Shown: one piece after another, positions 7,895 through 13,150 of the stretch | Numbering within the stretch: the first letter of the stretch is position 1 | How the letters are laid out: every line of letters begins with the position of its first letter | NCBI RefSeq assembly: GCF_024700075.1 | Contig: NZ_JAJONE010000001.1 | Coordinates: 4,363,001-4,427,000, forward strand | Direction of reading: 5' to 3' | DNA: 64,000 bases | DNA from: Hymenobacter sp. J193 | GTDB taxonomy: Bacteria > Bacteroidota > Bacteroidia > Cytophagales > Hymenobacteraceae | The notes under the pieces: model-generated | Databases searched by the model: none | Seen by the model: only the letters and a program-made list of their open reading frames with translations | Told to the model about the DNA's origin: nothing | Made by a program: the position numbers and the translations under genes

Positions 7895-9094
7895 ATGCGT
7901 AACACATTCTACGGATTGTTATTGTTGGGTTTGGTGGGTTGTGAGACCCGTCAAACAGCTACCACCGAAGCTCGGGTGACACCTCCGGCTGCTGTAAAGC
8001 AGTCCGAAGTAGTGCAGCCCGCCGTTCAGCCAAGGCAGGATACCACCGATTACAGTGAGGAAAGTAGTTGGGTAATGGGTGCCCACGCCGAACAGCTAGA
8101 TACTCTTTTGCGCATAGATGGGAAATCGTACCGCCTGCGGATGCGTGCCCAATCTGACAGTAGTGCTAGGCTTCAATATATTCAGAAGCCTGTGGCCGGA
8201 GAATCCCGGCAGATGATAGATACCATCCGTGGCGTCGACGCCAGCTTCACCTACGAGCTGTACGATGGCCAGGGCAAACGGCTGTTTCAACGCGTTTTGC
8301 GCAAGCCTGAGTTCTACAAAGCGGCCGGCCACGACCTGACCATCAACAGCGTGCTTATCGGACCTGACTTTGTGGGGTATAACGCCCCCCGCAAGGCCTT
8401 GCTGTTCAGCCAAAGCTTTGTGCCCGACGGCACTGACGTCGGCACGCAGTGCTTCCTGATGCTGGGCCTGGATGGGCGGGTCCGAATGCTTATCGAAGGA
8501 AACTGGGCGGGTGGGAATGAGGCCGACTGCGGCGTGGCCCAGGCCATCAACGGGGCCACTATCCTAACTTGTCAGGAGTTGATTCTGCCGAACGGGCGCC
8601 GTATGAACCTGCAAAAGAAGAACGCGGAGCTCGTTGCGGCTTTTTTTCTGAGCGACAGTACCCTGTTCGTGGCCTACGACTACGTAACGCACCAGTTGGT
8701 TAAGCTGGAGGAAGGAGGTCAAGGAATAGAGGAGGTGCGCGACCCGCGCCTGCAGCGCACGGCCAACGCCCAGATACTTGACCTGACGGGCAAGCCCCTG
8801 GCTGCCTTCCGCTACGACGGTTTCTCCAACGAGCTGGGGTATCTTGTGCCGCGCCGGTATGTATGGCAGACGAGCACCTATTACCTGCTGGATGAAGCCC
8901 GGAATAGCGTGCATCTTATCAGCCAGCAGCACCCCGAAAATCCCCAGGAACTCAAGCTGAGTCAACTGGAGAAGTTCCAAGCCCCTCGCCGGCCTTTGGA
9001 GCGAGCCATCAAGCTATACGGCAGCTCCGGCCAGGCTCACCTGTTGTACGTGGACACCCGCACGGGCCGCATCCGTCACCAGATCAACATCTAA
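7895..9094 (+). CDS. Uncharacterised lipoprotein
   Basis: 399 residues from the ATG at 7895. The N-terminus is a lipoprotein signal (MRNTFYGLLLLGLVGC, lipobox LVGC with Cys at residue 16) followed by a Thr/Ala-rich linker. The body has repeated short segments resembling beta-strands (SYRLRMRAQSDS, RMNLQKKNAELV), which suggests a beta-propeller or beta-sandwich, but no family was recognised. An in-frame GTG at 7853 was rejected because it would bury the signal peptide. Its last 11 bases overlap the convergent end of addA. Confidence 0.7.
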   Translation: MRNTFYGLLLLGLVGCETRQTATTEARVTPPAAVKQSEVVQPAVQPRQDTTDYSEESSWVMGAHAEQLDTLLRIDGKSYRLRMRAQSDSSARLQYIQKPVAGESRQMIDTIRGVDASFTYELYDGQGKRLFQRVLRKPEFYKAAGHDLTINSVLIGPDFVGYNAPRKALLFSQSFVPDGTDVGTQCFLMLGLDGRVRMLIEGNWAGGNEADCGVAQAINGATILTCQELILPNGRRMNLQKKNAELVAAFFLSDSTLFVAYDYVTHQLVKLEEGGQGIEEVRDPRLQRTANAQILDLTGKPLAAFRYDGFSNELGYLVPRRYVWQTSTYYLLDEARNSVHLISQQHPENPQELKLSQLEKFQAPRRPLERAIKLYGSSGQAHLLYVDTRTGRIRHQINI

Positions 9095-10609
9095 ACGCCA
9101 CCACTTCCTCCGTCTCGAAGTAGTACAGCAGCCCGCGCACGTCGGCAAAGCCCAGGCGCTTGAACAGCTGCCCGTACTGGCGCACCAGCTGCTGGTGCCG
9201 GTCTTCGGGCGGTGGCACCCGGAAGTCGAGGAGGGTGACGCGCCCCCGGCCCTCACCCAGCCCGGGCTCAAACACCACCCGGTCGGGCTTATAGTCTTCG
9301 CGGGGGGCGCCGCCTACCAGAATTTCCCGCTCCGTCTCGGCAATGACCCCGGGCTGGAAATACGGGGCCAGCTGCGGATGCTGCACCACTTGGCGCAGAC
9401 GTTGGAGCAGCTCGGGCCGCTCGCGGCGGCTTACCAGCCCCTCTGCCGTGAGCTGCCCCGCCACGCGCTCCACATCCGGGGCCATGATGACACGGCGTAG
9501 GGCAAAGTGCAGCTTGCGGCTCCACTCGCGCTGCTGTTGCTGCTCCGAGAAGTCGAATACGGTGCTGGCGTGCCGCCGCAGCCGCAGGCGCTGCTCCCAG
9601 TCGGCCGTGCTCAGGTTGGTCAGGGCGAATTGGTTGCTGGTTGCCGGTTGTTGGCTGTTCGTTTGGGCTGGTGCCGGGCTGCCGTGATTGAGCACGTAGG
9701 TGAGCTGTTCCTCGTTCCACTGGCCCAGGCTCACGAGGTAACGGTGGAGCAGTTGGGCAATGTTGGTAGCCGGGGCGGTTTCGTCCTTCGCCGATTTACC
9801 GGCGTCGGGGCGGCGGGTGATGATGTAGAGGCGGTGGCGGGGTCGGGTGAAGGCCACGTAGAGCAGGTTGAGGGCTTCCACGAAGGTTTTTTCGCGCTCC
9901 TCGGCGTACTGGTCTGCCAGCACGGTCTGGGCTAGCTCCTTGCGCTGCTTGACCACGGCCACCGGCGGCATTTCGGCCACGGGCTTGTCTTCCGCCGCCA
10001 GCCGGCCCCAGAGGTAGGAGCCCCCGAAGGCCGAGCTGGGCTCGAGGCTCCAGTCAGCCCAGGGTACGATGACCACGCCGTAGGCCAGGCCCTTCGCCTT
10101 GTGCACCGTGGTGATGGTGACGGCCCCGCCGCGTCCGGCCGGGGCGTTGATGCTCAGGTTGCTTTTGCGCTGGTCCCAGTAAGCCAGAAAGTTGCCCAGG
10201 TTGTTGCCGAAGCGCAGGGAGTACTCCAGGGTCAGATCCAGAAAGCGGAACAGATACTCGCTTTCCTCGCGCCGGTGCAGCAGGCCAAACAGGCCCATCA
10301 GCTTCTCGCTCAGCTCGTAGAGGTCGAGGTTGCCGGTTTGCTTTTCCTGCACGTCGTAGCCCAGGCGGCGCAGCTCGTCGAAAAACGGCTTGCTGCGCTC
10401 CTCCTTGGCAATTTCCCCGATGCGCCGGGCGCGGGTAGGGGTAGGCGGCACCCCACGTACCACTTTATCGACCAGCAGCAAAGCCTCCACCCGGGCCAGG
10501 GAGTTGGTAGGCTGGTGCAGCACCCGCAGAATAGCCACCAGCAAATTTACCACTTCGGCAAACTCCAACGACAGCGAATCAGCCGAAATGATGTCATAGC
10601 CCCGCTCTT

Positions 10610-11338
10610 TCAGAAACTTGGCCACCCGCCGGCTCTGGTCGCGGCGGCGGCACAGCACGGCCACGTCTTCCAGCCGGAACCCGTCGGCCAGGGCTTGCTC
10701 CACCAGGGCCAGGGTGAGGTAGAGCGTGCTTTCGTCGTAGTCAAGGGACTCCGCGCCGCTATGGCCGGGCAGGGGTTCGTCGGTATAGCGGCTTTCGGCG
10801 GGGCGGTACAGGCGGGCCGGGGCATCGGGCTGGGTAAGGAGGATTTCGACGTGGGCCTCACCCCCCGGCCCCCCTCTCCCGCGGAGAGGGGGGAGCCTGA
10901 TGACGGTCGTTCTGACGGGGCGGAGCTACTCCGCTCACGCTGCGCAGCCCCGCCGTGCGCGTCAGATTCTGACGGGTTTGGTTTGTTTAGCGCCTGATGA
11001 AGGGTATCAAGTACATTCGGAAGCTGGTGCAGTACCTGCTCGTTAGTAAAGCGAATTATCCGGTAACCAAGTCCTTCTAGTTCGTGGGTGCGGCCTGCGT
11101 CATATTCAGCCTGTTCATGGTCGCCGTGGACTTCGCCATCAATTTCTACGACCAGCAGGGCCGGAATGCACACGAAATCCACGATAAACGAGCCGATGAC
11201 GTGCTGGCGGCGAAACTTCGCGCCCAGCTTACCGTCCCGAAGCTCCTGCCAGAGTACTTCCTCCGCCGGAGTAGGGTGCCGCCGCATTTCCTTGGCAAAA
11301 TTCGATGTCTTCTCCCAGGCGCGTGCATCAGCCGTCAT
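10610..11338 (-). CDS. DUF559 endonuclease-like protein carried by the element in addA
   Basis: DUF559 is related to Vsr-type and restriction endonucleases of the PD-(D/E)XK fold. From the ATG at 11338 the protein has MRRHPTPAEEVLWQELR, then FRRQHVIGSFIVDFVC, then LVVEIDGEVHGDHEQ, the presumed catalytic D...ExD core, and ends its domain with GYRIIRFTNEQVL. The domain is complete and undamaged. There is no stop inside the element: the frame runs through the terminal repeat (SPLSAGEGGRGV) and 80-odd residues of out-of-frame addA, stopping at 10610. It is also in frame with addA upstream, so it may be made as a fusion. Confidence 0.75.
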   Translation of the reverse strand: MTADARAWEKTSNFAKEMRRHPTPAEEVLWQELRDGKLGAKFRRQHVIGSFIVDFVCIPALLVVEIDGEVHGDHEQAEYDAGRTHELEGLGYRIIRFTNEQVLHQLPNVLDTLHQALNKPNPSESDAHGGAAQRERSSSAPSERPSSGSPLSAGEGGRGVRPTSKSSLPSPMPRPACTAPPKAAIPTNPCPAIAARSPLTTTKARSTSPWPWWSKPWPTGSGWKTWPCCAAAATRAGGWPSF

Positions 11339-11479
11339 CACAAACTCGCCTACGGTGCCAGTAGGTAGCAATGGCACCGTATCCGTTGCGGGGCTGCGCA
11401 GCGCGAGCGAAGCAGCTCCGCGTCGTTGCACGGAATCGTCAGGCTCCCCCTCTCCGCGGGAGAGGGGGCCAGGGGGTGA
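10858..11479 (-). mobile_element. 622-bp DUF559 element with terminal inverted repeats
   Basis: Ends on the minus strand are TCACCCCCTGGCCCCCTCTC at 11479 and its imperfect complement at 10858. The terminal repeats match over about 40 bp (ending AGCCTGA) and continue with looser similarity, including GCTGCGCAGCCCCGC-type palindromes, for roughly 100 bp on each side. Each terminus also holds its own palindrome around TCCGCGGGAGA. GGCC flanks both ends (10854-10857, 11480-11483), consistent with a 4-bp target duplication or with a palindromic target. Cargo is a single DUF559 gene; no transposase is visible. Confidence 0.8.
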
Positions 11480-13150
11480 GGCCTGCACAAACTCCGCGTC
11501 GTAAATCTGCTGCACCAGTTCCAGCTGCGGGTGGCTCTGGGAAACGTGCGTAAAAAAGTCGTTGTTGAACTGGATGATCTGCGGGCCCGAGCGGTAATTG
11601 GTTTGTAGGGAAGCCGGTTCCAGGGCGCCTTCCAGCCCGATATAGCGCGCTTCCAGAATGTCGCGGGTTTCCTCATCCTGGGCGCGGTTGATGAGCGGCA
11701 GCGTGTGGCCCTGGTACAGGCGCAGAATCTGCTCCATTTCGCCCCCGCGCCAGCGGTAGATGGCCTGCTTGGCGTCGCCCACAGCTAGGCTCAGGTTGCC
11801 GCCCGCCACGGCGTTTTCCACCAGCGGCAGCAGGTTGTTCCACTGCAGTTCCGAGGTGTCCTGAAACTCGTCGATGAGCAGGTGCTGGTATTTCTCGCCC
11901 AGCCGCTCGTACAGAAACGGCACTGGCTCGCGCAGCACTATCTGGGCCAGCCGCCGGTTGAACTCCCCAATCAGCACCACGTTGCGGTCCTGACTTACCT
12001 GCTGCACGGCCTTGCTCAGCTCACTCAGCAGCGACACGTGAAACAGCTGCGGCAGCATTCCTTCGATCAGCAGATACTGGCTCAGATACTGGTCGCGCCG
12101 CTGCTCAAGCTCCTGGAATACCTGCGTCAGCTCACCCGCCACAGCTTCCAGCGCGGGCTTCAGCGGACCTTTCATAGCATCGGCGCTGCCCCACTTGCCT
12201 GTCTCCGCCGCCTTGCGGGCCGTAGCGGTAGGGACGCTGCCCGGCTCCTCCAGCCAGCGCAGTGGCTTGGTGAAGTGCGAGTGCACGCCCCGACTGCCGC
12301 CCGCCAGCTGGTCGGGCACGAGGCCATGCTGAGCTAACGCGGCCGTGGCCCGGTCGCCGAGGGCCTGCATGTCGGTCTGCATCTGCTCCCGGCGCTGCTT
12401 GAGGGTTTTGTGCAGGGTACGAAACTCCTTCAGCTCCATCTGCTGCAGCTGGGCCACGGCCTCATGCACCGACTCATTCAGCAGAAACTTGCCGAAGCGC
12501 ATCATCTCGTCGGGCAGCTGGTTCCAGCTGCGGCCTTCCTCGGCCTTGCTCAGGGCGTAGTCCTGCAGGGTGCGCGTGAGCAGGGCGTGCTCCTCGCCGC
12601 GGTTTACCTTATCCAGCAGCAAAGCCACCGCCGCGTGCAGTATGGATTCGTCGTCGAGCTCCACCTCGAAGGCAGCCGGCAAGCCCAGCTCCCGCGTGAA
12701 AGCCTGCACCACCCGCTGCACAAACGAGTCGATGGTACTCACGGCGAAGTCGGCGTAGTGGTAGAGCACCAGCTTGAACGTTTGCTGGGCCCGGCGGCGC
12801 AGCTGCTGCTGGCGCTGCTCGGGCGTGTCCAGCGTGCGGGGCAGCAGACCGTCGGCGTACAGCTCCTCGGCCAGCTCGGCCAGCAGCGTGTCGGCTTTGG
12901 TATCAATGCCGGGGTTGGAAAACCCGCGCAATGCCCCAATGATACGCTCCTTCATTTCGGCCGCGGCGGCGTTGGTGAAGGTAATGGCCAGAATGCTCTT
13001 GTAGTAGCCCGCTTCGTTGGCGCCCAGGGCCAGCCGCAGGTATTCCTTGGTAAGCTGATAGGTTTTGCCGGAGCCGGCAGAAGCGGAATAGATGCGGAAG
13101 GTAGCGGACATAGGGCGGAAATAATCTACGGTAAAGGTCGCAGGAATGCG

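Follow-up and report, generated by a model that had tools for sequence, protein, structure and literature searches.

A DUF559 nuclease gene bracketed by inverted palindromic repeats in a Hymenobacter helicase gene: a candidate two-part mobile system

The interrupted helicase gene

The window, here the whole stretch of 64,000 nucleotides from Hymenobacter sp. J193 that was analysed, contains a UvrD/AddA-type helicase gene interrupted by a short repeat unit. The identity of the host gene rests on profile matches, with PF00580 in one half and PF13361 in the other. The arrangement is as follows.

9084..10855, minus strand: C-terminal half of the UvrD/AddA-type helicase, in a frame that differs from that of DUF559
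10856..11481: the complete repeat unit with its gene, measured between the outer repeat ends (626 bp; 10854-11483 with both GGCC)
10856..10893, plus strand: left repeat, a C-rich tail CCTCACCCCC on the outside and a hairpin with its pyrimidine and purine arms at 10870-10892
10915..10953, plus strand: inner inverted-repeat arm 1
10988..11311, minus strand: DUF559 (PF04480) nuclease domain, from the profile match
11388..11426, minus strand: inner inverted-repeat arm 2
11446..11481, minus strand: right repeat, an inverted copy of the left repeat
11484..13111, minus strand: N-terminal half of the UvrD/AddA-type helicase, in the same frame as DUF559

The initial annotation had described an insert with inverted ends and an intact DUF559 gene, and both the alignment of the ends and the profile search (115.8 bits against a cut-off of 20.6) confirm this. 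The ends agree over 31 nt at 94% and over 20 nt at 95% (GGCC included), the inner pair agrees over 39 nt at 87%, and the similarity between the two ends reaches about 98 nt in a gapped alignment. The general build of the end repeat is a C-rich arm, a loop, a G-rich arm and a G-rich tail, and two occurrences of the end pattern in the window compare with none in 100 shuffles. The element first delimited as 10858..11479 (622 bp) is therefore real, with its repeat ends actually at 10856 and 11481. It was also correctly read as carrying no transposase, the DUF559 gene being the only one recognised within it.

The DUF559 frame is free of stops throughout the element, in which the first ATG lies at 11336-11338, and it is continuous with the N-terminal half of the helicase only. 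The C-terminal half (EAHVEIL...) follows a different frame, so that the host protein is split at this site. Repeats open in the host frame had been expected to give rise to fusions. This holds for other host proteins, with open fusions to RecQ, MetH, PurL, a PDDEXK_1 protein and a type ISP enzyme, but an intact AddA-DUF559-AddA fusion is not supported here, owing to the frame of the C-terminal half.

The helicase stretch is present in 60 of the 61 genomes of the genus. In the close relative G034 it is uninterrupted and 98% identical to that of the window over a 175-residue query in the adjacent protein stretch, which bears out the proposal that the unit was inserted. Where the window carries the element, this closest empty site carries 26 bp between two GGCC. 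A target-site duplication was considered for the GGCC flanks and is not supported, in view of these 26 bp. Removal of the element with one GGCC does rejoin the helicase in frame, as had been noted, but probably does not restore the exact ancestor, given the sequence between the GGCCs in G034.

Recurrence of the same insert in other species was examined inside the genus, with 30 of the 60 matching genomes taken, one of them the window's own, and the loci of 26 of the 29 relatives parsed. DUF559 occurs in none of these 26 helicase linkers, and the repeat, without DUF559, lies in frame in the same linker in four of them. The linkers L373 and L367 were considered as host DNA captured between repeats, a reading that was dropped, as L367 contains what look like eroded repeat copies. 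In a further relative (L376, genome G009) the linker is normal but the open helicase frame covers only 868 aa, either an unrelated interruption or a sequencing error.

Repeat families and their cognate nucleases in the genus

The assembly that contains the window (G000) holds 21 exact repeat ends. Seven adjacent tail-out pairs occur within 3 kb, comprising six short pairs, whose starts are 165-271 bp apart, and the DUF559 unit, for which the figure is 603 bp; 12 of the 21 ends form the six short inverted pairs, and seven have no exact partner nearby. Another end of this genome (L012) matches the end of the element at 90% over 106 nt, inner arm 1 (10915..10953) included. The second DUF559 gene of the assembly (L023, G000:C1:459189-459503) is enclosed by inverted copies of another repeat family, AACTCCCCTCCTT...AAGGAGGGG...GGGGTGGTTG. 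Two main families are distinguished in the genus. Family A has the form CCTCACCCCC-CGG-CCCCCTCTCC-loop-GGAGAGGGGG with the tail usually outside, and includes a variant Ap, whereas family B has the form CCCCTCCTN-loop-AGGAGGGG-CTA-GGGGTGG with the hairpin usually outside, and includes a variant B2 with a longer linker. Both families share one common architecture, with exceptions such as L059 and L087.

Inverted pairs that enclose no gene outnumber the gene-bearing unit, with six in G000 and 32 adjacent short pairs in G050. The latter genome has 80 A ends, and its adjacent pairs are tail-out in all 32 cases and tail-in in none. Pairs of the exact pattern other than the gene-bearing ones span only 80-271 bp in G000 and G050. 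Pairs of B repeats are also present in G015, G017 and G030. A search of Rfam gave two weak matches, both far under the gathering scores. In a check for concerted evolution of the two ends, which used a crude parser and carries no weight here, the loops were identical inside 57 of 77 elements, compared with 165 of 326 comparisons between orthologous elements.

Several smaller features of these repeats were also recorded. One short pair (L016, G000:C1:3261450-3261636) has flanks that place it mid-way in a longer palindrome, CCTTATTGG ... CCAATAAGG. Insertion into palindromic targets was considered as a possible rule; the complementarity of the flanks reached the control 95th percentile in nine of 25 units, partly through shared repeat sequence that continues outward. 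Outside several A pairs of G050 (L144-L173), a box like TCGCCCTCCRCG lies a few bases from the tail. A weak DUF559-like match (L024, G000:C1:2185564) is found in a very long open reading frame about 3.6 kb from the solo end L012, and similar frames of about 1500-1700 aa occur in other genomes of the genus.

Within this one genus, the DUF559 clade and the repeat family go together, and the copy number of a repeat tracks its cognate DUF559. The DUF559 genes were typed by their flanking repeat, which labelled 86 of 91 and left five unlabelled. In a tree of the 86 domains, a 100/100 branch parts 27 rows (17 B1, 9 B2 and 1 A) from 59 (47 A and 12 Ap), and the odd A-labelled row in the B clade (L049) adjoins B hairpins too. 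The repeat label changes seven times on this tree, against a shuffled mean of 35.0. Across the 61 genomes, which are mutually non-independent and in which the DUF559 type was read from the flanking repeat, the number of B repeats correlates with B1-type DUF559 (rho 0.78) and not with the A-type (0.04), whereas the number of A repeats correlates with the A-type (0.62) and not with B1 (-0.06). The median number of B repeats is 24.5 in the 14 genomes with a B1-type DUF559 and zero in the 47 without.

Repeats are also found in genomes without a detected DUF559, namely G023 (82 A) and G005 (22 B), and in genomes without the matching type, with A repeats in G035 (21), G038 (17) and G059 (23) and B repeats in G054 (13), G060 (8) and G059 (7). 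DUF559 genes that share a genome are 36-71% identical, which argues against recent amplification of the gene-bearing unit; the one pair at 100% (G016) lies on two contigs and is possibly an assembly effect. The DUF559 nuclease is under purifying selection.

Bracketing and insertion sites beyond the helicase

In several phyla, DUF559 genes lie between inverted repeat copies that share a single architecture. In the genus, where PF04480 is present in 51 of 61 genomes, 94 strong matches were considered, of which 91 were fetched and 89 tested (L044 and L054 have short flanks); weaker PF04480 rows were omitted, L024 excepted. An inverted repeat between the 350-bp flanks scored above the control threshold of 29 (the 99th percentile of 693 control windows) in 82 of these 89 genes. 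A profile search across bacteria yielded at least 80 loci, mainly from Bacteroidota, along with Chloroflexota, Patescibacteria, one cyanobacterium and one gammaproteobacterium. Among the matches listed, and with L179 and L249 excluded as short, 52 of 78 testable loci score above the 99th percentile of 598 control windows (27), 26 fall below it, and 13 of the 78 exceed the highest single control window (62). In Pseudomonadota, DUF559 was detected at E 1e-15 in 30 of 150 genomes, and 45 of 66 tested loci lie above a control threshold of 32.8 (424 windows, highest 38) and 21 below. Excluded from this last test were L268 and L277 (no match), L270 and L339 (short) and five repeats of the same CDS. 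The bracketing repeat in Pseudomonadota is often of the CCCTCTCCC-loop-GGGAGAGGG-TT-GGGGTGAGGG type. Additionally, three of five DUF559 loci in one cyanobacterial MAG exceed the same control threshold. A few loci of the genus and of Methylomonas are shared between the sets.

Hairpins with pyrimidine arms flank both sides of 152 of 232 DUF559 loci and of none of 285 control windows. When the control is centred on genes, in loci longer than 5 kb, such hairpins flank 99 of 155 DUF559 genes compared with 11 of 387 neighbouring genes, and inverted repeats flank 110 of 155 compared with 9 of 387. The suggestion that DUF559 genes are generally bracketed in this manner is thus upheld, and other genomes with DUF559 between such repeats, whose absence would have spoken against it, are readily found. 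A G-quadruplex was considered as a common recognition feature and set aside: the G3 four-run motif is enriched outside the genus (23 of 78 loci against 4 of 132 controls, and 32 of 65 against 3 of 63), but is not universal, and within the genus it occurs in 23 of 89 loci and 15 of 108 controls. A PADLOC search for defence systems with three proteins gave no match. A full-text literature search, judged by title and abstract opening and with subscription journals largely outside its coverage, found no link between DUF559 and palindromic repeats.

Orthologous sites differ in whether they carry a unit. Among the best 30 of 62 matches to the purL 3' end, a repeat-DUF559-repeat unit is fused to PurL in eight loci and neither repeat nor gene is present in 22. 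Seven filled sites that were measured have 550-640 bp between purL and the gene that follows, compared with 98-109 bp in empty ones, and the PurL tail is replaced in the filled sites. At both addresses compared, the helicase and the purL 3' end, target DNA has been replaced rather than duplicated; the target-site duplication that is a trait of DDE-type elements (IS and MITE) was not seen at either of these two addresses, the helicase being compared with G034. DUF559 addresses are often conserved, with 21 context clusters for 91 loci, an observation that also fits vertical inheritance. One intergenic slot, between a gene without a Pfam match and a DUF3686 gene, was compared in two species, between which the former gene is 82% identical; one species has an Ap-type unit in the slot and the other a B1-type unit. 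In a Tannerella MAG (JAITMM010000074.1; L214/L259), a repeat-DUF559-repeat unit lies in frame within LeuRS and is read through without a stop. This is the only full LeuRS detected in the MAG, the other match to the editing domain being weak and partial.

Known relatives and a possible mode of spread

The fold and the sequence profile of DUF559 match I-Bth0305I, an EDxHD homing endonuclease of a class described in PMC3943268 and PMC9403480. DUF559 shares with this class the conserved acidic and histidine residues as well as presence and absence at orthologous sites, but differs from it as a short single-domain protein bracketed by REP-like repeats, with no evident intron or intein. DUF559 also has the Vsr fold, although, unlike the very-short-patch-repair endonuclease, it is embedded in a repeat unit. 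The homing-like character supposed in the initial annotation finds support in the homing endonuclease fold, the fixed addresses and the presence or absence of the unit.

RAYTs are dedicated, low-copy genes flanked by inverted repeat copies, with gene-less pairs being more numerous, and the same is true of the DUF559 system. A single RAYT copy beside many REPs is likewise similar to the non-amplifying DUF559. REP/REPIN elements with their RAYT (TnpA_REP, Y1_Tnp) are also alike in their short hairpin repeats and frequent inverted pairs (PMC3733652), whereas the gene between the repeats of the DUF559 system is PF04480, which encodes an EDxHD/Vsr-type nuclease, and not the Y1 transposase (PF01797). 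Y1_Tnp is present in 43 of the 61 genus genomes. DUF559-type hairpins were found within 1.5 kb of none of the 30 Y1_Tnp loci examined in the genus (L114-L143), of which 18 have inverted repeats of their own and 12 have none detected. The number of A repeats is only weakly related to that of Y1_Tnp (rho 0.29), compared with 0.52 for all strong DUF559, and linkage lends RAYT no support as the mover, this weak correlation notwithstanding. The proposed likeness to RAYT/REP with a nuclease in the position of the transposase is supported.

Two further repeat systems bear comparison. CGTC-tagged REPs constitute a superfamily without a known dedicated transposase and with intragenic copies, according to Di Nocera et al. 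(2013; PMC3733652). Some DUF559-associated repeats, such as L059, show CGTC near the stem, but a hairpin of the CGTC-ATTCCC type gave a single match in 262 DUF559 loci, at a distance of 1434 bp from the gene, and these REPs are not supported as partner repeats. Rickettsia palindromic elements are read through in frame inside host proteins (PMC3733652); the DUF559 unit is alike in this respect and unlike them in that it can carry a nuclease gene.

On this evidence, the insert is rather probably the gene-bearing form of a two-part, REPIN-like mobile system composed of a DUF559 nuclease and its cognate palindromic repeat. The partnership itself is observed, and the movement by the nuclease is inferred. 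The first part would be the small EDxHD/Vsr-type DUF559, and the second the cognate repeat, which is also found on its own as short inverted pairs. DUF559 would recognise its own repeat by the hairpin and the G-rich tail, and would cut or nick at repeats or target sites. Repair of the break would then place a copy of the repeat unit, whether or not it carries the gene, in the site, with some loss of target DNA. Its role for these repeats may then resemble that supposed of RAYTs for REPs, through break and repair in place of a Y1 transposase. Such spread by a repeat-tied homing-type nuclease is indicated by the fold of DUF559, its fixed addresses, its cognate repeats and the replacement of target DNA without duplication; restraint on the mechanism is warranted mainly because DUF559 does not amplify within genomes and repeat-rich genomes without DUF559 exist. 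The loci of the wider sets that fall below the control thresholds, the weak correlation of Y1_Tnp with A repeats, the one-sided repeat at E. coli ycjD and the E. coli genomes without a ycjD match also speak against it.

An alternative is homing alone, in which empty alleles at a small number of fixed addresses are cut by DUF559 and flanking homology then directs the copying of the gene into them, with the repeats serving as ends or insulators and the short pairs being deletion derivatives or otherwise moved. The match to I-Bth0305I, the clustered addresses, the filled and empty sites among the purL matches listed above and the replacement of target DNA are all consistent with such an account. 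It is nonetheless unlikely, as it leaves unexplained both the short inverted pairs whose number tracks the cognate DUF559 and the repeat-only insertions in the helicase linker. More doubtful again is that another enzyme moves the repeats and that DUF559 is a passenger or domesticated gene, trapped between two of them and kept by the cell for repair. Repeats without DUF559 in G023, G005 and many E. coli would agree with this, as would the lack of DUF559 amplification within a genome. Chance trapping, however, would not favour DUF559 over its neighbours so strongly (110 of 155 against 9 of 387), nor match protein clade to repeat family even where one genome has both types. Moreover, these repeats bracket none of the 30 Y1_Tnp genes, and the other exact-pattern pairs in G000 and G050 could not hold such a gene. 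That DUF559 is instead a Vsr-like repair enzyme acting at C-rich or methylated sequences, with the repeats as regulatory or protective hairpins kept for its use rather than mobile DNA, draws on its fold and on Caulobacter VsrA, a DUF559 protein required for the DNA damage response that is seen in the absence of a cytosine methyltransferase (PMC12907096), but is highly improbable in view of the insertion polymorphism, repeats in coding sequence, in-frame LeuRS insertion and two different pairs in one slot, all of which are the behaviour of mobile DNA.

The two-part system may extend well beyond the genus. On a broader proposition, our confidence is evenly balanced: that a broad palindromic-repeat superfamily is mobilised by DUF559 proteins, its members being replicators in which a homing-type (EDxHD/Vsr) nuclease takes the place of a transposase and in which enzyme and repeat evolve as cognate pairs. 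The superfamily would range from Bacteroidota to Pseudomonadota, Chloroflexota, Cyanobacteriota and Patescibacteria, reach E. coli K-12, where ycjD adjoins a repeat present in about 19 copies per genome, and enter essential proteins in frame without splicing. REP-like repeats are common in bacterial genomes, one REP superfamily being without a known dedicated transposase according to PMC3733652, and DUF559 is widespread and still a ‘protein of unknown function’ in Pfam; if the two are partners, one link accounts for both. Such replicators, if real, would represent a second route to the REPIN way of life, enzymatically unrelated to the first, and a means by which nuclease domains enter housekeeping proteins in frame without an evident intein.

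The question would then be testable in E. coli K-12 with ycjD and its 41-bp repeat. A repeat of the kind that brackets other DUF559 genes lies 3' of this gene (L407 7203-7243, NC_000913.3), whereas its 5' side has none. At a loose limit (E 10), 5377 of 5426 E. coli genomes contain the 41-bp repeat, at a median of 19 places, and it may be the same as the described E. coli repeat box C. A ycjD match is present in 3365 of the 5426 genomes and absent from 2061, and in two strains without ycjD other genes lie at that site.
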